From: a virus
Length of the DNA stretch: 22,878 bases
Reading direction: 5' to 3' (one strand)
Virus record (IMG/VR): IMGVR_UViG_3300000956_000091
Span: 1 to 22,878 of that record
How positions within the stretch are numbered: position 1 is the first letter of the stretch; every line of letters starts with the position of its first letter. The translations under genes and the position numbers were made by a program. This document shows positions 2,263 through 15,528 of the stretch, in pieces. The notes beneath the pieces are model-generated. The model saw only the letters and a list, made by a program, of their open reading frames with translations. It did not search any database and was not told where the DNA came from.

Positions 2263-2699
2263 GTGATCCGACCGAGATGCTGATCCATGAACTCGGGAAA
2301 CTTGTCGCCCGCCGGGCGAAGCCACGGCCGGTAGCCCTGCCGGGGTCCGCCGGGCCGCTGCATGACCCGCTTCGCGAACCTGTCTTCACCTGTGACCGGG
2401 TCGACCCAATGCAGCAGGTTGCCCCGGACCGGCAGGATCGGGCCGCCGAACTCGCGCTGCATCGCATGTCGCAACGGGGAGCCGACGCGGGCATGCCACC
2501 CGGCGCCGTCGTGCCGGACGTCAGTGACCGAGATAGAAGCTCTCAGCCCGCCCTGTACGGACCCCACGTTCAGCCCGGCGCCCCGAGTGACGCTGACAGG
2601 CGCATTCTCGGCTGCCGTGCCCCTGACGTCCTCACAGGATCGCCTGAAGCCCGTCTCGATCTCTCGTTCGAGCGCCGAGTGATCGACGACGAGCTTCAT
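2259..2699 (-). CDS. HK97 gp10-like head-tail joining protein
   Basis: 146 residues. It carries features of the HK97 gp10/neck family: an N-terminal helical segment, VRVGS-like and REFGGPI strands, then a basic C-terminus with a PRQGYRPWLRPAG motif (this family often ends with a P-x-RPF/W-L-R segment) and a final helix. Members join the connector to the tail. It starts at an ATG that overlaps the preceding gene by 4 nt and overlaps the next gene by 4 nt, so it is embedded in the connector operon. Confidence 0.75.
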   Translation of the reverse strand: MKLVVDHSALEREIETGFRRSCEDVRGTAAENAPVSVTRGAGLNVGSVQGGLRASISVTDVRHDGAGWHARVGSPLRHAMQREFGGPILPVRGNLLHWVDPVTGEDRFAKRVMQRPGGPRQGYRPWLRPAGDKFPEFMDQHLGRIT

Positions 2700-3196
2700 G
2701 TCGTGACGATCGTCCCGATGATCGCGCCACCGACGACGTCGTCGAGCAGCCCGATCACGCGAGGGTGAAAGCGGCCGTAGTCACGGTCATCGGCGAGCTG
2801 ACCGCTCGTGCCGTCGGGGTTCGAGAAGTTCGCCAGCCCGCGCGCCCGGCGGGACGCAGCGGCGTCGAGAATGTCGACGTTGGCGAGCAGGTACGCCGCC
2901 TGCAGGAATGTTGCACGTGAAACACGCGCCGGGATGACCGGATCGCCGACGTCGTCGACGTCCTCTGACCGAGGGAACCGGAGCGCCTGCGCCGTGTCCC
3001 ACACGGCCACCGTCGCCCCGACATGCTCGTCGATCTCGGCCGTCGCGCGGATCAGCGCGGCCTCGCGGTCCTCTGACGTCGCCTTCAGCCAAGCCTTCGG
3101 CAGCGACCCGAGTTCGAGTGCTGCGAAGGCGTCGGCCGAAGCGACGTCGAGGTACGAGTTCGCGTCTGCGGCCGCGACGGTCGCAATGACCGCCAC
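2696..3196 (-). CDS. DnaT-like (DnaT_2 type) head-tail connector protein
   Basis: 166 residues. The N-terminus has the typical pattern of this phage family: DANSYLDVASADAFAA, then an aromatic-containing region, then EDREAALIRATAEID and LRFPRSEDVDD. Families with this pattern are often labelled DnaT-like ssDNA-binding but are found between capsid and tail genes, where a head-tail adaptor role is more plausible. The start is a GTG 3 nt after the upstream stop, and the stop overlaps the next ATG by 4 nt. Confidence 0.72.
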   Translation of the reverse strand: MAVIATVAAADANSYLDVASADAFAALELGSLPKAWLKATSEDREAALIRATAEIDEHVGATVAVWDTAQALRFPRSEDVDDVGDPVIPARVSRATFLQAAYLLANVDILDAAASRRARGLANFSNPDGTSGQLADDRDYGRFHPRVIGLLDDVVGGAIIGTIVTT

Positions 3197-4910: not shown

Positions 4911-4928
4911 GCTCCTGACTGCAGGAGC
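4911..4928 (-). promoter_or_regulatory. Hairpin over the ribosome-binding site of the capsid gene
   Basis: In the 32-nt gap before the capsid gene, GCTCCTG and CAGGAGC form a perfect 7-bp stem with a 4-nt loop (CAGT). The AGGAG Shine-Dalgarno bases lie in one arm, so folding would hide the site. It might tune capsid translation or slow ribosome loading, but the short stem could also be chance. Confidence 0.4.
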
Positions 4929-4933
4929 GTGAC

Positions 4934-5575
4934 CTAGCCCCGTCGGTTGCCTGACGCTGCGTATCCCGCCGAGAGCATGTCACGCGCCGTCTTCGGTTCG
5001 GGACCACCCTGCGAGCCATTGCCGCCCGCGGGCTGTCCGAAGTCGTTTCGGTTCGTGCCCGGCTTCAGGAACTCGTATCGCTTCACGACGTCGTCGACGA
5101 GCTTGCCGACCGCGGCTTCGTCCTTCGCGTTGCCGTCATCGTCGACCTCGATCTTGTCGAGATCCCCGTCGGCCGCCGCGAGCTTCGCCGCCGCGTCTGC
5201 GCTGGTCACCTTCCCGGCTGCAGCGCCCACGAATACCGCTCGTCGTGCGATGCGAAGAGCCCGTTCCTCGGCTGCCACTCGGGCGGCCTTCTCGCGCTCG
5301 GCGAGCTGTTCGTGCTCGCCCTTCTTCTTCATCTCGTCGGCCTGACGTTCCTGCTCGGCCTTCAGGAGCTTCTGATACTCCGTGTTGACCTGAGCGAACC
5401 GCTCGTACGGAACCGTCTGCTCGGGCGGCCCTGACGGCGCCGGAGCCCCGCCGCCCGAAGGTGGCGCAGCCGGTGGCGTCGAAGGCGGTGCCCCCGGTGC
5501 CGGATCGCCCGTAGGCGGCCCGCCTGCCGGAAGCTCGTACAGCGGCCCGAGTCCGAAGAACCGATCGCATCGCAT
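4934..5575 (-). CDS. Putative capsid scaffolding protein
   Basis: 213 residues from ATG 5575 (a GTG at 5581, two codons earlier, is equally possible). Residues about 20-60 are Pro/Gly-rich. A long charged coiled coil follows (EYQKLLKAEQERQADEMKKK to about residue 120), then an acidic Ala/Asp-rich segment and a Gly-rich tail. A long helix and disordered ends, placed immediately before the capsid gene, are the usual marks of a phage scaffold, which guides procapsid assembly and is then removed. No protease gene is obvious nearby. Confidence 0.72.
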   Translation of the reverse strand: MRCDRFFGLGPLYELPAGGPPTGDPAPGAPPSTPPAAPPSGGGAPAPSGPPEQTVPYERFAQVNTEYQKLLKAEQERQADEMKKKGEHEQLAEREKAARVAAEERALRIARRAVFVGAAAGKVTSADAAAKLAAADGDLDKIEVDDDGNAKDEAAVGKLVDDVVKRYEFLKPGTNRNDFGQPAGGNGSQGGPEPKTARDMLSAGYAASGNRRG

Positions 5576-5667
5576 CTTCACTTGTCGAGTTCCCTCACCC
5601 GCCCATGACGTCGGCGACACGGCTCGGACACTCACGCGGCCCGAGTTACTGCGCCGGAGTCTAGAAG

Positions 5668-5931
5668 CTACGGCCCTTCGTTGTCGAGCAGGATGCGCGA
5701 GCCCTTCATCGCATAGATCACCGCTCGGGCATGGTCGGCCGAGCCGGGCGCGACCTTCTCTAGTCGTTCCTCGATCCCGCCACCGTCGATCTCGACGCTG
5801 CGCCGGACGCGAGCGGGCTTCGAGAACGCCCGGCGGATGCGCGTCTCTTCGACGCCCGAAGCTTCGAGTACGTCGAGCCGACCCTTCTCCCACGAGATCG
5901 TCGTGCGCTCCCCGATCATCGCGAGGATCAC
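5668..5931 (-). CDS. 87-residue protein of unknown function, coupled to the head protein gene
   Basis: 87 residues from a GTG that overlaps the stop of the upstream gene by 4 nt (GTGA at 5928-5931), with GGAGGGG about 8 nt before it. The sequence (MIGERTTISW, VEETRIRRAF, HARAVIYAM) suggests a small mixed alpha/beta fold and is not one I recognise. It lies between the Mu F-like/metallopeptidase gene and the scaffold gene. It might be a small structural part, or a partner of the upstream peptidase domain; neither is shown by the sequence. Confidence 0.68.
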   Translation of the reverse strand: MILAMIGERTTISWEKGRLDVLEASGVEETRIRRAFSKPARVRRSVEIDGGGIEERLEKVAPGSADHARAVIYAMKGSRILLDNEGP

Positions 5932-7859
5932 GGCTCGACCCCTCCGAACACTCGATCGCGGAAGAAGGCATACCGGCGCGGGCTGTACCTCTTCAGCCGG
6001 GCCGGGTTCAGGAAGTAGAGCATGCCCGACTCGGCGAAGTCTTCGGCGTAGCCGTCGGTCATGGCATAGCGCGTCGGGTACATCTCGGCGCCGCTCTCGA
6101 TCGCGCTCTCGATCTTCGCGATCTCGTTCCTGACGCGAACGAGCAGCCCTTCGTAGAAGCTGTCGCCCGTCTCGCTCAGTCGCTCGACGTACTTCGCTTC
6201 CGACTCGCGCAGCCCCTTCAGCGCCCCGGCGTCGGGAGCGACCTGCCGCGTGGTGGCCTTCCTGATCGCGAAGTATTCGTCGTGCCAGTCCGCGGCGATC
6301 TTCTCGACCGACTTGAACGCCGACCACGCCTGCCGGGCCGTCGAGTTGACGGCCGTGTCGTACAGCCCGTAGCGGAAGTGGATCGTGTGCAGGAACTCGT
6401 GCAGGAAGATCTCTTCGACGCCGTTGACGCCCTCGCCCGCCCGGATCGACCTTGTGATATACGCCGGGAGCTTCGGAAGGTTCGCCTCGACGTAGCCCTG
6501 CGGGAATGCCCGGCCGAGCACGTTCGCGCCCCACCGGCTCGCGAACGGCGGCCGGATACCGAGGAAGCGCAGGTACTCGCTGTCGACGACGTAGCTCGGA
6601 TTGATCGCCCGGAGCCGTTCGAGCGCCTGAATGGTCGCAGCCCGAAGCTCCGGAGCCCACCCGAGCGGCTTGCCCCACGTGATCCCGTACCTGAGCTGCA
6701 GGAAGTTCGCGAACGCGGCGTTCCCCTGCGTGCCCTTCAGCAGCGAGAGCATCCGGATCTCGTCGGCCGTGAGCGTCCCGAGCCCACGCCAGAACTGCGC
6801 GTTCACGAGAGCTTCGAGCCGCTGCAGCGCGGCGAGCGAGTTCAGCGGCCCGGTCGCCCGGAGCGCCGCGTCGAGAATGTCGTCGGACACGCCCGGCAGC
6901 GCCGCTCGAATGCGGTTCAGGATGCCCCACTGATCGACCGTCACCCTCGACAGCGACGAGAGCTGACCGAGCGCGTTCGGGAAGTCGCCCGCGGCAGGCG
7001 GGATGATCGGCTTCTTCAGCCCGCCCATCGCCGTCTTCGGCAGGACCGGCGGCACGACGGCCGTGCCCGGCTTCAGGATCTTGCCGTTCGGATCTCGGTA
7101 CTCGGCCCGGATCGAGCACCGGCAGCGGGGATGCGCCGGGAGCTTCGGGAGCGGCCCGGCGAACGGGTAGCCGTCGCCCGGTGCGATCCGGTACACCTTG
7201 CCGCCCCGCGGCCCGCACGTCGGACACACGGCTTCGTCGGGCGAGATGATCCAGCGGACGAAGCTCGCCCCGGTCGACTCGATCCCGGCGAGTACGCCGC
7301 CGTTGAACGCCTTCATCGTCTCGGTCCGGGCGATCACGCCTGCCCGGTATTCGAGGCTCGGCCAGTGGGGTATGTTCGTCAGCCCCGACGCGATGATCCG
7401 GGTCCGGAGATCCGAGCCCGAGAGCCCCTGCAGGATGCCCTGAGCGATCGACTGCCGGATCGAGACGCGAATGTCGTTCGACGCCCCGACGATCAGCCCG
7501 AGCGTGTCCTTCGAGAGCGCGTCGAGCGCCGCGATCGGCATGACGACGGAGCTGTTGATCCGCCACCCGGCCGAGTAGGCTTCGGGGATGACGCTCGTCG
7601 TCCAACGGGAGCCGTCCGCGGCGAGCTGCGTCGCGACGCGGTTCGTCTCGTCGAGCAGCTTCCGGTAGAACACCGAGTCGCTCGCCGTGAGCGAGCCCTC
7701 GCGGATGAACTGTTCAAGTTCGAGGCGAGCCTCGCGGAAGAAGCTCTGAAGCTGCGCTGTCGAGTCGGCCTCCGCTCCGAGGAACTGCCACAGCCACGTG
7801 TGCCGGGGCGAAGTGACCCCGCCGGGGCGAAGCTCGTCGGGGAATGGCGCCAGCGTCAC
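5928..7859 (-). CDS. Mu F-like minor head protein fused to an HExxH metallopeptidase-like domain
   Basis: 643 residues from a GTG. Residues about 110-255 match the Mu F / SPP1 gp7 head-morphogenesis domain: a helix with IARTETMKAFN, then CPTC at 212-215 and HPRCRC at 243-248. After a Pro-rich linker (260-290) and a helical region comes a C-terminal domain with HEFLH at 487-491 and EDFAE at 606-610 followed by YFLNPARLKRYSP. This is the pattern of gluzincin-type metallopeptidases in which a downstream Glu completes the zinc site. Mu F domains with C-terminal effector domains are known in phages. Several long frames over this gene on the other strand and other frames are shadows. Confidence 0.85.
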   Translation of the reverse strand: MTLAPFPDELRPGGVTSPRHTWLWQFLGAEADSTAQLQSFFREARLELEQFIREGSLTASDSVFYRKLLDETNRVATQLAADGSRWTTSVIPEAYSAGWRINSSVVMPIAALDALSKDTLGLIVGASNDIRVSIRQSIAQGILQGLSGSDLRTRIIASGLTNIPHWPSLEYRAGVIARTETMKAFNGGVLAGIESTGASFVRWIISPDEAVCPTCGPRGGKVYRIAPGDGYPFAGPLPKLPAHPRCRCSIRAEYRDPNGKILKPGTAVVPPVLPKTAMGGLKKPIIPPAAGDFPNALGQLSSLSRVTVDQWGILNRIRAALPGVSDDILDAALRATGPLNSLAALQRLEALVNAQFWRGLGTLTADEIRMLSLLKGTQGNAAFANFLQLRYGITWGKPLGWAPELRAATIQALERLRAINPSYVVDSEYLRFLGIRPPFASRWGANVLGRAFPQGYVEANLPKLPAYITRSIRAGEGVNGVEEIFLHEFLHTIHFRYGLYDTAVNSTARQAWSAFKSVEKIAADWHDEYFAIRKATTRQVAPDAGALKGLRESEAKYVERLSETGDSFYEGLLVRVRNEIAKIESAIESGAEMYPTRYAMTDGYAEDFAESGMLYFLNPARLKRYSPRRYAFFRDRVFGGVEP

Positions 7860-9674: not shown

Positions 9675-9738
9675 TGAGGCGAGCCGGATAGCGACAGGGT
9701 TGTGCTAACCGAACCCGCTCTTTCCCCGGCTCGCCTCA
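9675..9738 (-). repeat. 64-nt inverted-repeat element filling the gap after the portal gene
   Basis: TGAGGCGAGCCGG and CCGGCTCGCCTCA form a perfect 13-bp stem around a 38-nt centre. The element runs from the portal stop codon (its TGA is the first three bases) to the base before the next GTG. The centre can also pair (GGGTT with AACCC, AGCG with CGCT), so a branched RNA fold is likely. There is no T-run, so it is not a standard terminator. It could be a processing or translation-control element or a small mobile palindrome. Confidence 0.65.
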
Positions 9739-11277
9739 TGCCTGCCGCTGTGCGCTAGATCCGCCCCTGCGCGTCTGTGGCGGCCCCTGACGCCCGCCCG
9801 GCGGCGGCGGTGCGTCGTCGTCCTCTTCGGCCGGTGCGCCGCCTCCGAAGGCGTCCTGCGCGGCCTGCACCGACGCGGCCTTCTCGTCGGCGATGCGCGC
9901 CAGCTCGTCGTCGAGTTCCTCGGCAGGCACTCGCCGGAGCTTCCGAAGCGAGAGTTCGAGCGACGACATGCCCGCCCCGAAGAGCCCCTGCTCGATCCGG
10001 GCTTCCTGCTCGTCGTCGGCCGGGAGCGGCGAGCCCGACGTCACCTTCGCCTTGCGCTGAGCTTCGTCCGTCACGCCGTCGATCCTGAGCCCGAAGTCGA
10101 TGATCCGCCGCTCCCGCGCCGCCTCGCGCCGCTGCCAGCGTGCCGCCTTCTTCAGATAGTTCTGAAGCTGCAGACGCATCGCTGTGCCCGAGCCGAGTTC
10201 ACCGCCCACGCCCCGGCCGAAGTAGCTGAGCGGAACCTCGGACGTGAGCATGATCAGGTCGATCACCTTGTCGAGATCGGCGAGATGCTGATCGAGCATG
10301 CCCTCGAAGGTGATATAGCGCGCCACGTCGGCTTCCTTCGGGTCGCGGATGCCGATCGCCTTGTCGGAGCCCTTGAACAGCGTGCCGCCGAACATCGTCG
10401 ACGCCGGGATCTGCAGCATCGGGTCGCCGTGGTATTCGAGAATGTTCGAGACGTTCGAGAGCGTGTTGTCGACGTCGTCGAAGAGGGTCATGCAGCGGGA
10501 GAGTTCCGAGACGCCCCAATACCGACCGCTCCACCGGGCGCCGTGCATGTCGATGAACGGCAGGAAGTCGAGCGTCGTCTGCTCGGACGAGACGCGACTG
10601 AAGTCCTCCTTCCCGCCCTTGCGCTCGGACCGGGTGATCTCGTACTTGCCTGAGATCGAGCTGACCTCGTGCATCTCGCGGACCTGCCAGATCTCATCCC
10701 GGCCGTCGTCCTTCGGGCGGTTCTCTTCCCACGCCAGCACGACGTACTCGATCAGCCGGTCGCTACCGCTCCGGAGCTTCGGGAAGTAGATCCCCGAGCT
10801 GATCTCTTCGATCTGCACCGGGTGGCCCGTCAGGTCGCCGAGCGCCTCGGACCGGAAGAGCCGCACGACGCTCGTGCCCCGGAACGACGCCGCGAAGACG
10901 CTCTCCCACGCCCGGCCGTCCGACCAGCCGTTCGCGTCGTCGATCGCGGCCCATCGGTCCTCTACCGACGTCGACGGCAGCTCGATCTCGGGCGGATCGC
11001 CCCACACCGAGTCCGCCCACACGTTGCACAGCAGCTCGGGCAGCGCGACCGCGAGCAGGATCTTCGACTTCTGATCCTCGCGCAGCGCGGCTCGCTCGAA
11101 GACGTCGTGCGGGCGGTTCTCGATCAGCGCCTCGTACTCGACGTAGCGATCGAGCCGCTCGGCGTCTTCGTCCGGCGGCCACAGCTTCGTGCTCGACGGG
11201 ACGCGCACCCGCGTCCGGTTGAACGGCGTGAGCCCCATGACGATAGGCTGACCGTAGCTTCCGCTCCACGTCGGCAT
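9736..11277 (-). CDS. Portal protein
   Basis: 513 residues from ATG 11277, with TAGGAG before it. The family pattern is that of SPP1 gp6-like portals: an N-terminal helical region, a beta-rich wing (SFRGTSVVRLFRSEALGD, GIYFPKLRSG), the stem region with GRYWGVSELSRCMTLFDDVD, NVSNILEYHGDPMLQIPA, then LMLTSEVPLSYFG-like and SGTAMRLQLQNYLKKA, and a disordered Pro/Gly/Arg C-terminus. The dodecamer forms the DNA gate of the head and docks the terminase motor. It comes immediately after the nuclease half of the terminase. Confidence 0.9.
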   Translation of the reverse strand: MPTWSGSYGQPIVMGLTPFNRTRVRVPSSTKLWPPDEDAERLDRYVEYEALIENRPHDVFERAALREDQKSKILLAVALPELLCNVWADSVWGDPPEIELPSTSVEDRWAAIDDANGWSDGRAWESVFAASFRGTSVVRLFRSEALGDLTGHPVQIEEISSGIYFPKLRSGSDRLIEYVVLAWEENRPKDDGRDEIWQVREMHEVSSISGKYEITRSERKGGKEDFSRVSSEQTTLDFLPFIDMHGARWSGRYWGVSELSRCMTLFDDVDNTLSNVSNILEYHGDPMLQIPASTMFGGTLFKGSDKAIGIRDPKEADVARYITFEGMLDQHLADLDKVIDLIMLTSEVPLSYFGRGVGGELGSGTAMRLQLQNYLKKAARWQRREAARERRIIDFGLRIDGVTDEAQRKAKVTSGSPLPADDEQEARIEQGLFGAGMSSLELSLRKLRRVPAEELDDELARIADEKAASVQAAQDAFGGGAPAEEDDDAPPPPGGRQGPPQTRRGGSSAQRQA

Positions 11278-11286
11278 CGGCGTCTC

Positions 11287-12069
11287 CTACAGGAAGCCCG
11301 GCGGGCGCCGGTTCAGTACCACGGCGCCGCTGAGCAGCCCGGTCATCTGCAGTATCCCCGACGCGGCGTCGGCCATGTCGTCGTGTCGAGCGTTCGGCAG
11401 CCGGGAGAGCTGCCACTCGAAGGCTGAAGCCTGCATCGTCGGATGATGGTAGACCCGGCCGAACTCGTACATACGCCCGAGCGCGAGATGACGGCTCAGC
11501 TTGTCCCGGTCCGGGCGCACGCCTTCGATCGGAAGTTCCGGATGGTCGCCGACGAGAAGCTGCACGAGCGCCGTCTGATAGGCGACCTCTTCGATCCCGA
11601 TCGCCGCCGGGCGGTAGTACCTCGCGACCTCGACGATGATCTCTTCCTGCTCCTTGATCCCGACGCGGCCGTGCCAGAACCAGCGGAAGAACACCGCGCC
11701 CCGGAGCGTTGGCGGCGGTTCCTCGCCCGGCTTCAGCTCCCACTCGGGCGCCAGATGTGCCGGAGTCTGCTCTAGGCTCACGTTCGCGACGACGATCGCC
11801 GTCTCGTCGGCTGTCGTCTTCTGCGAGATCGCCGGGTCGATGAAGGCGTACGGCGTGCCCGGCGGGTCGCCCCGGTAGTACCGGAACCACTCGGGCTTGA
11901 TGATCTGACCGGCGAGCCCGCCCCGGCGGCCCTGATACATCGTCTCGAAGAGCGGCGTGCCGAGATCCTCGTGCGCCTGCGCGAGATCGGCGAGCGGAAT
12001 GTAGCCCGGCCACAGCGCCGGACCCTGACCGTGCAGCTCGACCTTCAGCCGGGTCGGAGCCTCAGTCAC
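11287..12069 (-). CDS. terL: Terminase large subunit, nuclease half
   Basis: 260 residues from a GTG that overlaps the upstream stop by 4 nt. It starts with the segment that normally joins the two terminase domains (ALWPGYIPLADLAQA, LFETMYQGRR, IIKPEWFRYY) and continues into an RNase H-like nuclease with YAFIDPA (D78), IGIEEVAYQ (E160), RPDRDKLSRHL and HDDMADA (D230, D234), the expected acidic metal ligands. It cuts concatemeric DNA during packaging. No ATPase motif is present; that half is encoded about 2.1 kb upstream at 14139-14984. The two together would give one normal-length TerL of about 540 residues. Confidence 0.9.
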   Translation of the reverse strand: MTEAPTRLKVELHGQGPALWPGYIPLADLAQAHEDLGTPLFETMYQGRRGGLAGQIIKPEWFRYYRGDPPGTPYAFIDPAISQKTTADETAIVVANVSLEQTPAHLAPEWELKPGEEPPPTLRGAVFFRWFWHGRVGIKEQEEIIVEVARYYRPAAIGIEEVAYQTALVQLLVGDHPELPIEGVRPDRDKLSRHLALGRMYEFGRVYHHPTMQASAFEWQLSRLPNARHDDMADAASGILQMTGLLSGAVVLNRRPPGFL

Positions 12070-12593
12070 AGCCTGAGCCGCTTCGCGAACGCGAACAGGA
12101 GCGCGCCCGCCCCGACGACGCATCCGATGATGAAGCTCGCGAGCAGCGCCGGATCGGCGACGCCCATCGTCGAGACGCGCGGCCCGTTGCCCGGCTTGTC
12201 GCGGTTCGGGTCACGGCCCGGCGGGCAGGTGCGCCCCGGCTCCTGTGCACCTGTCCGGATCTCGCAGGTCGGACGCGGCCGCGGGGTCCGCGGCGGCTCG
12301 ACGGACGTCTCGACCGGGGTCGGCGTCTCTGTGACAGCGACGATCGGCGGATCGGTCAGTTCCGGCTCAGGCGTGCCCGACGTCTCGACCGGAATGATGC
12401 TCGGGGTCGGCGACGCGACAGGCGAGAAGCTCGGAGCTTCGGACGCGCGCACGGTTGGAGCTGCGCTCGGGCTCGGCGCCACGGCCACGGGTGGCGGGCT
12501 AGGCAGCGCGTCGATGACCGTCTCGGCGACGCCCGCGACGAGCATCGCAGCCGTCAGGACACCGAGAAGGCCCGCGAGCCCCCTATCGCTCAC
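12066..12593 (-). CDS. Proline-rich membrane protein with a helix at each end
   Basis: 175 residues from a GTG, overlapping the upstream gene by 11 nt. Hydrophobic helix at about residues 8-25 (GLLGVLTAAMLVAGVAETV), then about 110 residues of Pro/Thr/Ser/Glu-rich, probably extended sequence with two cysteines (PTCEIRTG, GRTCPPG), then a second helix near 149-168 (LLASFIIGCVVGAGALLFAF) and a basic end. It could span the periplasm or cell wall space, like a spanin or signalling protein, but no family match is known to me. It lies directly before the terminase nuclease gene. Confidence 0.72.
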   Translation of the reverse strand: MSDRGLAGLLGVLTAAMLVAGVAETVIDALPSPPPVAVAPSPSAAPTVRASEAPSFSPVASPTPSIIPVETSGTPEPELTDPPIVAVTETPTPVETSVEPPRTPRPRPTCEIRTGAQEPGRTCPPGRDPNRDKPGNGPRVSTMGVADPALLASFIIGCVVGAGALLFAFAKRLRL

Positions 12594-12999
12594 GAGTCAG
12601 CACCGCCTCGCCGCCGGGCTCGGCTGCTGGCGTCTCGGGCTCGGCGAACGGGTGCGACCGGCGCCACTTCAGGTACTCGACGTCGACGATGACCGCGGCG
12701 AAGAGCCCCACGAACACCCCAAGGGTGAGCGGCGTCAGCGCTGAGCTGAGCGCGGCGTAGTCGATCGCGATGACGCCGCGCTCGTTCAGCACTCGGAGAG
12801 CCGTCAGGAACAGCAGGTACGAGAGCCCGAGCACGCCTCCCGACGTCACGACGAGCTTCACGAACGTCAGCGTGAGCCACGTCGACGGCAACGGCTTCGT
12901 CGTGCGGTCCTGCCGCCACAGCCGATACAGGTAGCGAACGCCCTGTATCGCCCGTAGGTCGACGATGATCACGATCACGAGCGCGATGACGAGCGCCAT
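12583..12999 (-). CDS. Membrane protein with three predicted helices (holin-like candidate)
   Basis: 138 residues starting at the ATG in TGAATG, right after the upstream stop. Hydrophobic helices at about 2-18 (LVIALVIVIIVDL), 45-69 (TFVKLVVTSGGVLGLSYLLFL) and 84-109 (LSSALTPLTLGVFVGLFAAVIV), with a charged, Pro/Glu-rich C-terminus. A holin or lysis-associated role is possible from size, helix number and neighbouring small membrane genes, but no diagnostic motif is present. Confidence 0.72.
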   Translation of the reverse strand: MALVIALVIVIIVDLRAIQGVRYLYRLWRQDRTTKPLPSTWLTLTFVKLVVTSGGVLGLSYLLFLTALRVLNERGVIAIDYAALSSALTPLTLGVFVGLFAAVIVDVEYLKWRRSHPFAEPETPAAEPGGEAVLTRER

Positions 13000-13200
13000 T
13001 CAGCGACCCCCTGCGTTCAGTCGTTCGATGCGCCGGACCTCCTGCAAGTCTGCCGTAGCCGCGGCCAGATGGTCGAGCGCGCTGTCGACCTTCGTGATCG
13101 ACTCGTCGTGCGCGGGCCGGATCGCCCCGATCTCGTCTTCGAGACGCTTCAGGTTCTCGTCGCGCCCCGACACCGTGTCGCGCTCCTTCTCGTCGGTCAC
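13000..13200 (-). CDS. 66-residue coiled-coil protein
   Basis: 66 residues from a GTG overlapping the upstream stop by 4 nt. Highly charged and helical throughout (DENLKRLEDEIGAIRP, SALDHLAAATADLQEVRRIE), without a membrane helix. It probably pairs with the membrane-anchored coiled-coil protein encoded just upstream. Function unknown. Confidence 0.65.
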   Translation of the reverse strand: MTDEKERDTVSGRDENLKRLEDEIGAIRPAHDESITKVDSALDHLAAATADLQEVRRIERLNAGGR

Positions 13201-13484
13201 GTTCGGCCTACCTTCGCGCGCTGTCGTGCGATGGTCGAGATCGCCGTCGCCGCCTGCTCAGTCGCCTCGGCCGCCTTCGCGCTTGCGGCAGTCTGCTCCC
13301 GCCACCCCGTGACCGCAACGGACGCGAGTTCCTCGGCCTTGTCGAGCTGCGCTTCGAGCTTCGCCTCGCGGGCATCGGCCCGCGTCCGCTCACGGTTGTC
13401 GGCGTCGAGATGCAGCTTCCACAGGATGCCGATAACGGTCGAGAGGGTCGAGAGTGCGACGATGAGCGCCTGCTCGAAGGTCAC
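13197..13484 (-). CDS. Membrane-anchored coiled-coil protein
   Basis: 95 residues from a GTG that overlaps the CAP gene stop by 4 nt; the longer frame to 13520 is unlikely. One N-terminal membrane helix (ALIVALSTLSTVIGILW), then a long charged coiled coil (RADAREAKLEAQLDKAEELA and on). Small phage proteins with this layout sit in lysis modules as holin-like or spanin-like proteins; this is inference from architecture. Confidence 0.68.
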   Translation of the reverse strand: MTFEQALIVALSTLSTVIGILWKLHLDADNRERTRADAREAKLEAQLDKAEELASVAVTGWREQTAASAKAAEATEQAATAISTIARQRAKVGRT

Positions 13485-14011
13485 GGACGCTGCGTGTTCG
13501 TGAACTCGACGGCTGCCCACTTCTTACAGAAGCTTCCGTCGGCCTCGCAGTTCGAGCTGCTCTTCGTCTTGAAGATGGCGACGCCGTATCGATCGTAGTC
13601 ACAGTTCCGGATCAGCGCCCGGTGCCCCGGCGAGTCGATCCAGCCGTTGACGATGCGCCGCGCGACGTCGCGATCGGGGAAGCTCGACACAGCGAGGATC
13701 TCGCCCGCCCCGTACGGCCTCGGGATGCCCGCCTCGGCGTAGAAGTCCCATATCCGGTGCCCGTCGTTGAACTGGTGCGCGATCCGGTCACGGAAGCCCA
13801 TGTCGTACGCCTTGAACTCGGCCGCGGCGTCGAGCTGCGCGTCGCGGTCGATGTTCCGGCCGCACGCCCGGAAGTGCTCGGTCAGCACCCGAGCAGCGAT
13901 CTCGTCGGCGACGTCGGCGTTCGTGGTGGCGTTGCGCCACGACAGCGCGATCGCTGAGCTTGCGAGCAGGACTGCCAGCGCACCCGCGAGCAGCGATGCC
14001 CGCCCGATCAC
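13481..14011 (-). CDS. CAP (SCP/TAPS) domain protein with N-terminal membrane/signal segment
   Basis: 176 residues from a GTG overlapping the previous stop by 4 nt. Residues 1-25 are a hydrophobic signal or anchor. The CAP fold is indicated by a first helix with H79 in HQFND, GAGEILA at 101-107 (E104) and GWIDSPGHR at 123-131 (H130), the usual cavity residues, and a final strand WAAVEFT. Four cysteines (50, 137, 155, 162) suggest disulfides outside the cytoplasm. CAP proteins are secreted and bind lipids, cell-wall material or ions in other systems. Location inside the packaging cluster is odd, and a role at the host envelope is likely. Confidence 0.8.
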   Translation of the reverse strand: MIGRASLLAGALAVLLASSAIALSWRNATTNADVADEIAARVLTEHFRACGRNIDRDAQLDAAAEFKAYDMGFRDRIAHQFNDGHRIWDFYAEAGIPRPYGAGEILAVSSFPDRDVARRIVNGWIDSPGHRALIRNCDYDRYGVAIFKTKSSSNCEADGSFCKKWAAVEFTNTQRP

Positions 14012-14118
14012 GTCTTCCGGCCGAGCTTCTTCGCGATCCGCGGCGGGATCGAGTGAGCCTTCGTCGGCTTACCCGTCTTCACGAACTTTCCCGACTTGCC
14101 GTGCTTCGCCTGCGCCAT
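14008..14118 (-). CDS. 36-residue basic protein
   Basis: 36 residues, too short for most gene finders, from ATG 14118 with AAGGAG upstream. More than a third of the residues are Lys, Arg or His (KHGKSGKFVKTGKPTKAHS, then IAKKLGRKT). It lies between the ATPase half of the terminase and the CAP gene, overlapping the latter by 4 nt. Likely a nucleic-acid-binding or structural peptide; no family recognised. Confidence 0.62.
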   Translation of the reverse strand: MAQAKHGKSGKFVKTGKPTKAHSIPPRIAKKLGRKT

Positions 14119-14123
14119 CGCCC

Positions 14124-14137
14124 GCTCCTTCCGGAGC
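14124..14137 (-). promoter_or_regulatory. Hairpin over the ribosome-binding site of the 36-residue gene
   Basis: GCTCC-GGAA-GGAGC is a 5-bp stem with a 4-nt loop, in the 20-nt gap after the terminase ATPase gene; the AAGGAG site is in its loop and arm. It mirrors the hairpin before the capsid gene. Chance formation is quite possible for so short a stem. Confidence 0.3.
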
Positions 14138-14138
14138 T

Positions 14139-14984
14139 TCAGTCGACCCGTTCGAGATCCGAGCCGGTCAGCTCCCGGTACTTCTGACCCGGCCGCCACG
14201 TCACCCCGTTCGGGATGGTCACGTCGGCCTCGACGATGGTACTCGACGATCGGGCGGCCATATGCAGCACCACGAAGCTTCCGGATTGCGCCGCGCTGTC
14301 GACGACGTCGGCTTCCGCCCACAGCGTGCCCGCGATGACCCGCCACCCGCCGGGCTTCAGCCGGGAGAACACCGAGCGCCTGATCCACACCTTCCGGGCT
14401 TCGAGCATCGTCTCGGACCGAGCCGTCGCTTCGTCGACCGCGTCGTCGATCACGACGCCGTTCGCCCGACGGCCGATGATCGCCCCGCCCGCCCCGACGA
14501 AGACGATCTGCGGATCTTTCGACTGCCGGAGCTGCCGGACCGGCCCCTTCAGGAACCGCCCGTCCGCGGACCAGCCTCGACGGTAGTCGGGCTCGACGCC
14601 GGGGAACACGGCACGCTGCTCGGGCGCCTGCTCGAACACGTTCGCGATCGTGTCGCCGTAGAGCTTGCCGAGCGTGTCCGTCGTCGTGACGCCGATGACC
14701 TGCTCGTTGTACCTGTGACCGAGGTAGAAGCTCGGGAAGATGATCGACGTGTAGGTCGACTTCGCGTGCCCCGGTGGAGCGATGATCACGAGCCGGGAGA
14801 TCAGCCCGTCGTACACGCCCTGCAGCGCGTCGAGCATGAGCACGTGGTGATCGGCGGGCTCGACCTCGAAGACGTGCCGCGAATACTCGAAGAGGCTACC
14901 CCGTGCCAGCCTTCGAGCGCGCTCTAGGCGTAGCCGTAGCTCGACGATCGCGTCGTGCCGTTCGCTCTCGTTCGCGTAGCCCAC
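14139..14984 (-). CDS. terL: Terminase large subunit, ATPase half
   Basis: 281 residues from a GTG. Contains the packaging-motor ATPase motifs: an adenine-side segment (RRLARGSLFEYSRHVFE), Walker A APPGHAKST at 69-77, Walker B GVVIDDAVDEATA with the acidic pair at 180-181, and a coupling motif AGTLW at 218-222. It powers DNA translocation into the head through the portal. The reading frame stops after WRPGQKYRELTGSDLERVD, just in the linker before the nuclease domain, which is encoded separately at 11287-12069. It overlaps the small terminase gene by 89 nt in another frame. Confidence 0.9.
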   Translation of the reverse strand: MGYANESERHDAIVELRLRLERARRLARGSLFEYSRHVFEVEPADHHVLMLDALQGVYDGLISRLVIIAPPGHAKSTYTSIIFPSFYLGHRYNEQVIGVTTTDTLGKLYGDTIANVFEQAPEQRAVFPGVEPDYRRGWSADGRFLKGPVRQLRQSKDPQIVFVGAGGAIIGRRANGVVIDDAVDEATARSETMLEARKVWIRRSVFSRLKPGGWRVIAGTLWAEADVVDSAAQSGSFVVLHMAARSSSTIVEADVTIPNGVTWRPGQKYRELTGSDLERVD

Positions 14985-15528
14985 TCAGCCGTTCCTCGAT
15001 CTCGTCGTCGTTCATGCCCTCGAAGCCCGAAGCTCCGAACAGTGGCGACCCGTCCTTGCCGGTGATCTCCTTGCGGTCCTGCCACCCGTCCCGGCGTCGA
15101 CGCAGCCATTCGAGCGCGGCTCGCCAGTCGCCCGGTACTCGCACCTGCCCCTCTCCTGCCGCGGCCTCGACCCGCGAGCGTGCGGCGGCGGCGATGATGA
15201 TGACCCGAGCGTGCTCGGCGTAGCTCTCGGCCGCCTCGATCTTGTGAGCATATCGAGAGTAGATCGTGTCAAGGCTGTCGAGCTTGTCGGCCTCGCCCTT
15301 CTCGATCCATTCGTAGTGGGTTCGGCGCGGGACGCCGCACAGCTCCGCGGCGACGAACGGCCGGTCGCCCATCCGCACGTACTTCGCGATCTTGTCGCCG
15401 AGCGACTCCGACAGGACGTTCGGCGTCTCGTACGGGCGCCCCTGAGCCACGAGAGCGACCTCGCGGTTCGGTCCGTGTCTCCGTGCCCGCTTCGAGCCCT
15501 TCGGTGGCGTAGCGGCCGTTCTAGGCAT
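14896..15528 (-). CDS. terS: Terminase small subunit
   Basis: 210 residues. Basic N-terminus, an HTH-like segment (GDRPFVAAELCGVPRRTHYEWIE), a helical oligomerisation region (YAHKIEAAESYAEHARVIIIAAAA) and the typical WRAALEWLRRRRDGWQDR motif, then an acidic stretch and a low-complexity Arg/Ala tail. It recognises phage DNA and controls the large terminase. The tail overlaps the start of the ATPase gene by 89 nt, which is long for this genome. No strong Shine-Dalgarno site before ATG 15528. Confidence 0.82.
   Translation of the reverse strand: MPRTAATPPKGSKRARRHGPNREVALVAQGRPYETPNVLSESLGDKIAKYVRMGDRPFVAAELCGVPRRTHYEWIEKGEADKLDSLDTIYSRYAHKIEAAESYAEHARVIIIAAAARSRVEAAAGEGQVRVPGDWRAALEWLRRRRDGWQDRKEITGKDGSPLFGASGFEGMNDDEIEERLSGLRERERTARRDRRATATPRARSKAGTG

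Follow-up and report, generated by a model that had tools for sequence, protein, structure and literature searches.

Phage terminases nearly always have a single-protein large subunit (TerL), and it is a basic question about the packaging motor whether the pumping and cutting of DNA need to be covalently coupled. Here, we describe a locus in IMG/VR virus record IMGVR_UViG_3300000956_000091 in which the ATPase and nuclease halves of TerL lie in separate genes with six other genes between them. The record is incomplete, and its whole 22,878 bases, the stretch analyzed here, are referred to as the window. Two-gene terminases are already known: most Arthrobacter cluster AY phages have separate TerL ATPase and nuclease genes (PMC11920828, PMC12820723). 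As in the window, the two genes of AY phages such as BillyTP and BlueShadow are found in the packaging operon between the terminase small subunit (TerS) and the portal; unlike in the window, they are consecutive, with a 17-nt overlap (BillyTP genes 2 and 3) and nothing between them. The BillyTP halves gave no hmmsearch match to profiles of the window's clade at an E value of 10, and we assume that they are homologous to the window's halves only distantly, as TerL proteins. In other phages, the terL frame is interrupted by extra DNA, as it is here, but the parts are spliced into one protein, either through introns (ICP1, PMC10448857; SIOphi, phiAGATE and Bastillevirinae, PMC11878797) or through an intein (Mic1, PMC7156551). 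An earlier interpretation made from the window's letters alone (the sequence-only reading) had named both separately encoded TerL domains and intron-interrupted terL genes, and the AY phages, ICP1, SIOphi and phiAGATE bear this out. Among open-licence texts, no description turned up of unrelated genes lying between TerL halves, or of a related series with differing gaps; an earlier report is possible. What appears to be new is not the two-gene TerL itself but halves parted by unrelated genes, with gap contents that vary among relatives.

The ATPase half (281 aa, GTG start; 14139-14984, minus strand) and the nuclease half (260 aa, GTG start; 11287-12069, minus strand) are open reading frames separated by 2.07 kb, and the two domains do not share a single polypeptide. 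We searched both halves against TerL profiles and found that each matched phrog_38 in PHROGs (E = 2.7e-37 for the ATPase half, E = 4e-27 for the nuclease half), with the nuclease half also matching Pfam Terminase_6C (E = 1.2e-6); the sequence-only reading had placed them correctly. In a six-frame search with phrog_38, profile positions 249-474 fell in the ATPase half and positions 467-571 and 580-702 in the nuclease half. Because the halves tile the profile with a small overlap, nothing is missing at the break, and truncation of the halves or of the linker was ruled out. The ATPase half carries the motifs APPGHAKST, VIDDA and GTLW, comprising Walker A, Walker B and the coupling threonine, and its residues P71, K75, D180, D181, R208, T220 and D226 are invariant in an alignment of 21 relatives. 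The nuclease half is RNase H-like, with an acidic catalytic set of D78, E160, D230, D231 and D234 that is invariant, together with K190 and R193, in an alignment of 22 relatives. Both alignments include contiguous TerLs, and every Walker motif and nuclease acid that had been claimed from the letters was retained. The pair lies between TerS upstream (phrog_4102) and an SPP1_portal gene downstream. Profile and six-frame searches of the 22.9-kb window found no second TerL, intact copies of which the sequence-only reading had named as a finding that would count against it.

To place the break, we compared the window's clade with the contiguous TerL of contig L089. In L089, the ATPase domain extends through '...ALSDGKEVWAEAKF', followed by a long linker and then '...LFIHDQGPALWPEYW'; in the window's clade, the first half stops after '...EADVTIPNGVTWRP...', and its partner opens '...LKVELHGQGPALWP'. 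The break therefore falls in the linker and leaves both domains whole, as had been proposed for the ends of the two halves. Predicted structures are consistent with this. AlphaFold2 (AF2) models had a predicted local distance difference test (pLDDT) score of 91.6 for the ATPase half, with low confidence over the last ~10 residues, and 83.2 for the nuclease half, which was least confident over residues 1-16 and its 12 C-terminal residues. Each half is thus predicted to fold confidently alone, as an autonomous fold, with disorder mainly at the ends facing the break. A sequence search of the PDB with profiles of both halves gave no match, while the fold search was positive: Foldseek matched the ATPase half to the terminases of PhiV-1 and P74-26 and the T4 gp17 ATPase, and the nuclease half to the nuclease domains of T4/RB49 gp17 and D6E. 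These matches include TerL ATPase or nuclease domains that were solved alone (2o0j, 3c6a, 2wbn, 4znl).

The same split, followed in each case by the portal, is present in independent metagenomic virus contigs: L001 (ATPase 594-1463, nuclease 2431-3150), L003 (ATPase 4914-5762, nuclease ~5968 to 6717, with TerS upstream) and L004 (ATPase to 774, nuclease 1016-1723). Relative to the window, the nuclease halves of these contigs are 53-68% identical and their portals 51-55%; the ATPase halves, including that of a further contig, L005, are 46-56% identical. L005 belongs to G292, a 39.5-kb contig that opens within the portal and closes within the ATPase half, which places its ends around the gap; the capsid proteins of G292 and the window are 82% identical. 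In a maximum-likelihood (ML) tree of both domains from 60 sequences, the window, L001, L003 and L004 formed one clade (support 99). A scan of viral contigs with the ATPase half as a single sequence gave no match, and profiles of two to five rows found the relatives; a first scan of genome contigs found no relative. The matches to the nuclease half only that were read (L012, L015, L017, L019, L027, L049, L075 and L080) were rejected as further splits, being contiguous TerLs with a divergent ATPase, and, apart from the bacterial pair described below, the remaining TerL relatives with readable open reading frames were contiguous.

Because independent contigs share the split, an assembly junction between 12069 and 14139, which the sequence-only reading had raised as a possible source of error, is very unlikely, and we do not regard the split as an artefact. 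More broadly, the split TerL could be degenerate or mis-assembled, with the real terminase elsewhere, and the record is indeed incomplete (22.9 kb, compared with at least 39.5 kb in G292). Against this, the split recurs in independent contigs whose motifs are intact, the pair is flanked by TerS and the portal, codon usage is normal for all parts, and mis-assembly would require two joins, each on a 4-nt stop/start overlap; we consider this reading very unlikely. The relatives show the split to be old and heritable, with most of the gap genes variable.

The content of the gap differs among these relatives. It holds a single gene in L003 (a 41-aa basic peptide) and in L004 (a 58-aa basic peptide), five genes in L001 and six in the window. 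Three of the five small L001 genes are short and basic, as judged by reading the sequence, and none resembles the genes of the window. The first gap gene of the window also encodes a basic peptide (36 aa, pI 12; 14008-14118, minus strand), which is 61% identical to the L003 peptide over 31 aa (E = 2e-7), with the C-terminus PPRIAKKLGRKT; both peptides end in KKLGRKT. In both, the stop codon of the peptide gene overlaps the following start at the same position, that start belonging to a CAP-domain gene in the window and apparently to the nuclease half in L003. Apart from the basic peptide, the gap sequences of the relatives are unrelated. The CAP gene was not found in L001, L003, L004 or G292, nor were similar membrane genes found in the gaps of L001, L003 and L004. 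A search for relatives with the same gene order had been suggested, and it yielded the same split and portal and not the window's cassette. The CAP and membrane cassette is thus peculiar to the window among the split clade, and the split is independent of the cassette and most likely predates it. The proposal that an envelope cassette became locked into the packaging operon finds no support in this comparison, since one tiny peptide gene fills the gap in L003 and in L004, and five unrelated genes fill it in L001. The gap is best read as a variable slot that tolerates inserted genes within an otherwise essential gene, and the simplest history would be one in which the window's lineage acquired five genes after the basic peptide and ahead of the nuclease.

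These gaps also bear on whether a full-length TerL could still be made. The terL introns of ICP1 (PMC10448857), SIOphi and phiAGATE (PMC11878797) give a precedent for a self-splicing intron, or trans-splicing, with the six genes as intron cargo. However, no Rfam intron matched in the window, L001, L003, L004 or the bacterial contig L103 even at an E value of 1 with permissive filters, no homing endonuclease was recognized in the gap by Pfam or PHROGs, and no intein was found in the window. Gap sequences that are unrelated but for the basic peptide also speak against an intron, as do the stop/start overlaps of gap genes with the reading frames on either side and the halves of L103 and a second bacterial contig, L104, which overlap directly with no gap. 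We judge it very unlikely that the halves are joined by splicing. Recoding, by frameshift, stop read-through or ribosome hopping, would instead yield either a TerL of full length or a nuclease half fused to the basic peptide. In its favour, the nuclease half of L003 has no ATG, GTG or TTG ahead of Met-Tyr-Gln (L003:5960-6120), and the 58-aa peptide of L004 is in frame with the nuclease half except for one TAG. In the window, however, recoding would need to bypass 2 kb and six genes, and the nuclease half has an ordinary GTG or ATG start in the window, L001, L103 and L104; we regard recoding as very unlikely. In L003, the basic peptide gene ends in a TAG that is overlapped by an ATA, closely preceded by GGAGG, and this ATA may be the start codon of the nuclease half.

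We consider it highly likely that the window encodes a large terminase of two polypeptides working in trans, and that the gap between their genes is a tolerated insertion slot, filled here with envelope-type cargo. Assembly in trans, as the sequence-only reading had supposed, is the natural interpretation of a split kept over a clade 46-68% identical, with intact catalytic residues and halves predicted to fold autonomously. An ancestral single terL would have broken within the flexible linker between ATPase and nuclease, each part acquiring its own start or stop. The two subunits would then meet at the portal and act as a normal packaging motor, which is supported because both active sites are conserved. 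Expression would come from a polycistronic late message with translational coupling, perhaps with less nuclease produced. After the halves had become distinct cistrons within a single late operon, the gap could have tolerated new genes: in the relatives, tiny genes for basic peptides, numbering one or a few (with two more small genes in L001), and in the window's lineage five genes that joined the basic peptide gene ahead of the nuclease, mostly via stop/start overlaps. Some observations weigh against this account. The record is partial, so the search of the window leaves room for another TerL outside it, although G292 has a single TerL ATPase; the nuclease half of L003 lacks a standard start; and the envelope role of the cargo is drawn from the composition of a cassette without an endolysin.

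In a variant that we think improbable, the split is itself functional: the ATPase and nuclease would be dosed separately, and the basic peptide, as a third component of the motor, would take the place of the covalent linker and tether the nuclease to the ATPase or to DNA. The nuclease follows a variable gene set, often with a weak GTG, TTG or perhaps ATA start. If true, this would be a three-part motor in which cutting is dosed apart from pumping. Under the favoured reading of a trans-acting terminase with a tolerated gap, a natural lineage with separate TerL genes and unrelated genes between them offers a ready system for the coupling question, and the gap shows a concrete way for phages to bring new late genes into a core operon while leaving it intact.

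The split is also more general than could be seen from one sequence. Contiguous TerLs of the phrog_38 type (such as L089 and L091-L097) have the same two domains and motifs as the window, and both halves align to them; unlike the window, they are one polypeptide, with the long linker of L089 continuous where the window's clade is broken. An orphan split pair was found in two Armatimonadota metagenome-assembled genomes (L103:6965-8424 and L104:6959-8430). As in the window, the break is at the same linker and both active sites are kept; unlike in the window, the halves overlap by ATGA with nothing between them, and the contigs are bacterial. The pair groups with the unsplit L089 in the ML tree (support 98). 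Two breaks are the simplest reading because of this grouping, and the break probably arose at least twice; the deep nodes between the groups are weak (support 46-47), which leaves some room for one break followed by re-fusion. The neighbours of the pair in both genomes are LpxC- and FabZ-like genes, named by reading the sequence, and the ratio of nonsynonymous to synonymous divergence between the two is low (dN about 0.05-0.07, dS 0.33-0.39). No other phage gene was recognized nearby in the stretch that was read, and the pair may be a domesticated terminase. In PHROGs, phrog_4758 and phrog_5573 are terminase families of 243 and 250 positions, each matching one half, which suggests further separately encoded halves.

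The genes of the window's locus run on the minus strand in the order TerS, ATPase half, basic peptide, CAP protein, membrane coiled coil, CC66, TM138, Pro-rich protein, nuclease half and portal. TerS (14896-15528; phrog_4102, E = 8e-10) has weakly similar genes at the equivalent position in L003 and L005. It overlaps the ATPase half by 89 nt in a different frame (14896-14984), and a comparably long overlap is seen in L003. The basic peptide gene starts 20 nt past the ATPase stop with its own GGAAGGAG. It is followed by genes for the CAP-domain protein (176 aa, with an N-terminal hydrophobic segment; 13481-14011), a likely coiled coil with one N-terminal membrane helix and then a charged Ala-rich stretch (95 aa; 13197-13484), CC66 (66 aa, soluble, charged and likely coiled-coil; 13000-13200), TM138 (138 aa, with three hydropathy peaks indicating membrane helices; 12583-12999) and the Pro-rich protein (175 aa, with a membrane helix at either end and hydropathy peaks at residues 5 and 150; 12066-12593). 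The GTG start of the nuclease half overlaps the stop of the Pro-rich gene, and the portal (9736-11277; Pfam SPP1_portal, E = 9e-11) follows. All six gap genes proposed from the letters look real because their codon-usage scores (0.34-0.64) resemble those of the core ATPase, nuclease, portal, MuF and major capsid protein genes (0.40-0.53). The coupling proposed for them holds mostly, with GTGA overlaps at the basic/CAP, CAP/membrane coiled coil, membrane coiled coil/CC66 and Pro-rich/nuclease junctions; it is not uniform, given the adjacent TGA-ATG of CC66/TM138, the 11-nt overlap of TM138/Pro-rich and the 20-nt space before the basic gene.

The CAP gene product matched Pfam CAP (PF00188) with an E value of 1e-9 and 39.7 bits (cut-off 21.1), and its hydrophobic segment, apparently a signal or an anchor, begins at residue 5. 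It resembles the CAP secreted proteins of phages and bacteria in this domain and differs from them in lying inside a terminase operon; among phages, the only match was in Bacillus phage Slash (25% identity), and no relative was found in viral contigs. TM138 had no match in phages or viral contigs, and CC66 had none in phages. The membrane coiled coil and the Pro-rich protein, searched in Pfam and PHROGs only, had no family match of weight. By hydropathy, the membrane proteins of the cassette have one, three and two helices, without a match to a holin or spanin family, and Pfam and PHROGs revealed no endolysin in the six gap genes. The cargo is probably made late and, going by its make-up, most probably acts at the host envelope, in a lysis-assisting or a wall- or surface-modifying role.

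Three proteins with membrane helices beside a CAP protein with a signal-like segment could also be the virus's own lysis module, comprising holin, spanin-like and CAP proteins and moved into the packaging operon. Such a position has precedents in the annotated endolysin gene that Streptomyces phage Abafar carries between terL and portal (L105 650-4085) and an endolysin at that place in Listeria phages A511/CKA15 (PMC12282133), and G292 encodes small soluble, three-transmembrane (3-TM), 320-aa soluble and 2-TM proteins past its tail genes. The lack of an endolysin argues against a displaced module, and none of the cassette proteins was found to match the G292 set in sequence; the window also stops before the usual lysis place of the virus. 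We view this origin as possible but rather unlikely. The first three G292 proteins had no Pfam or PHROGs match of weight, and TM138 gave no BLAST match to the 3-TM protein; their global alignment z score of 3.9 is attainable by shared hydrophobic composition and was not used. The G292 region itself (22717-24801; L128:2917-5001), after the tail genes of this near-complete relative, resembles a lysis module where lysis genes are expected.

Finally, some other TerL relatives carry large in-frame insertions between stretches matching the profile (L032 3-2792, L039 859-2712, L055 5366-7753, L057 5078-7813 and L115 1381-3342), which are probably inteins.

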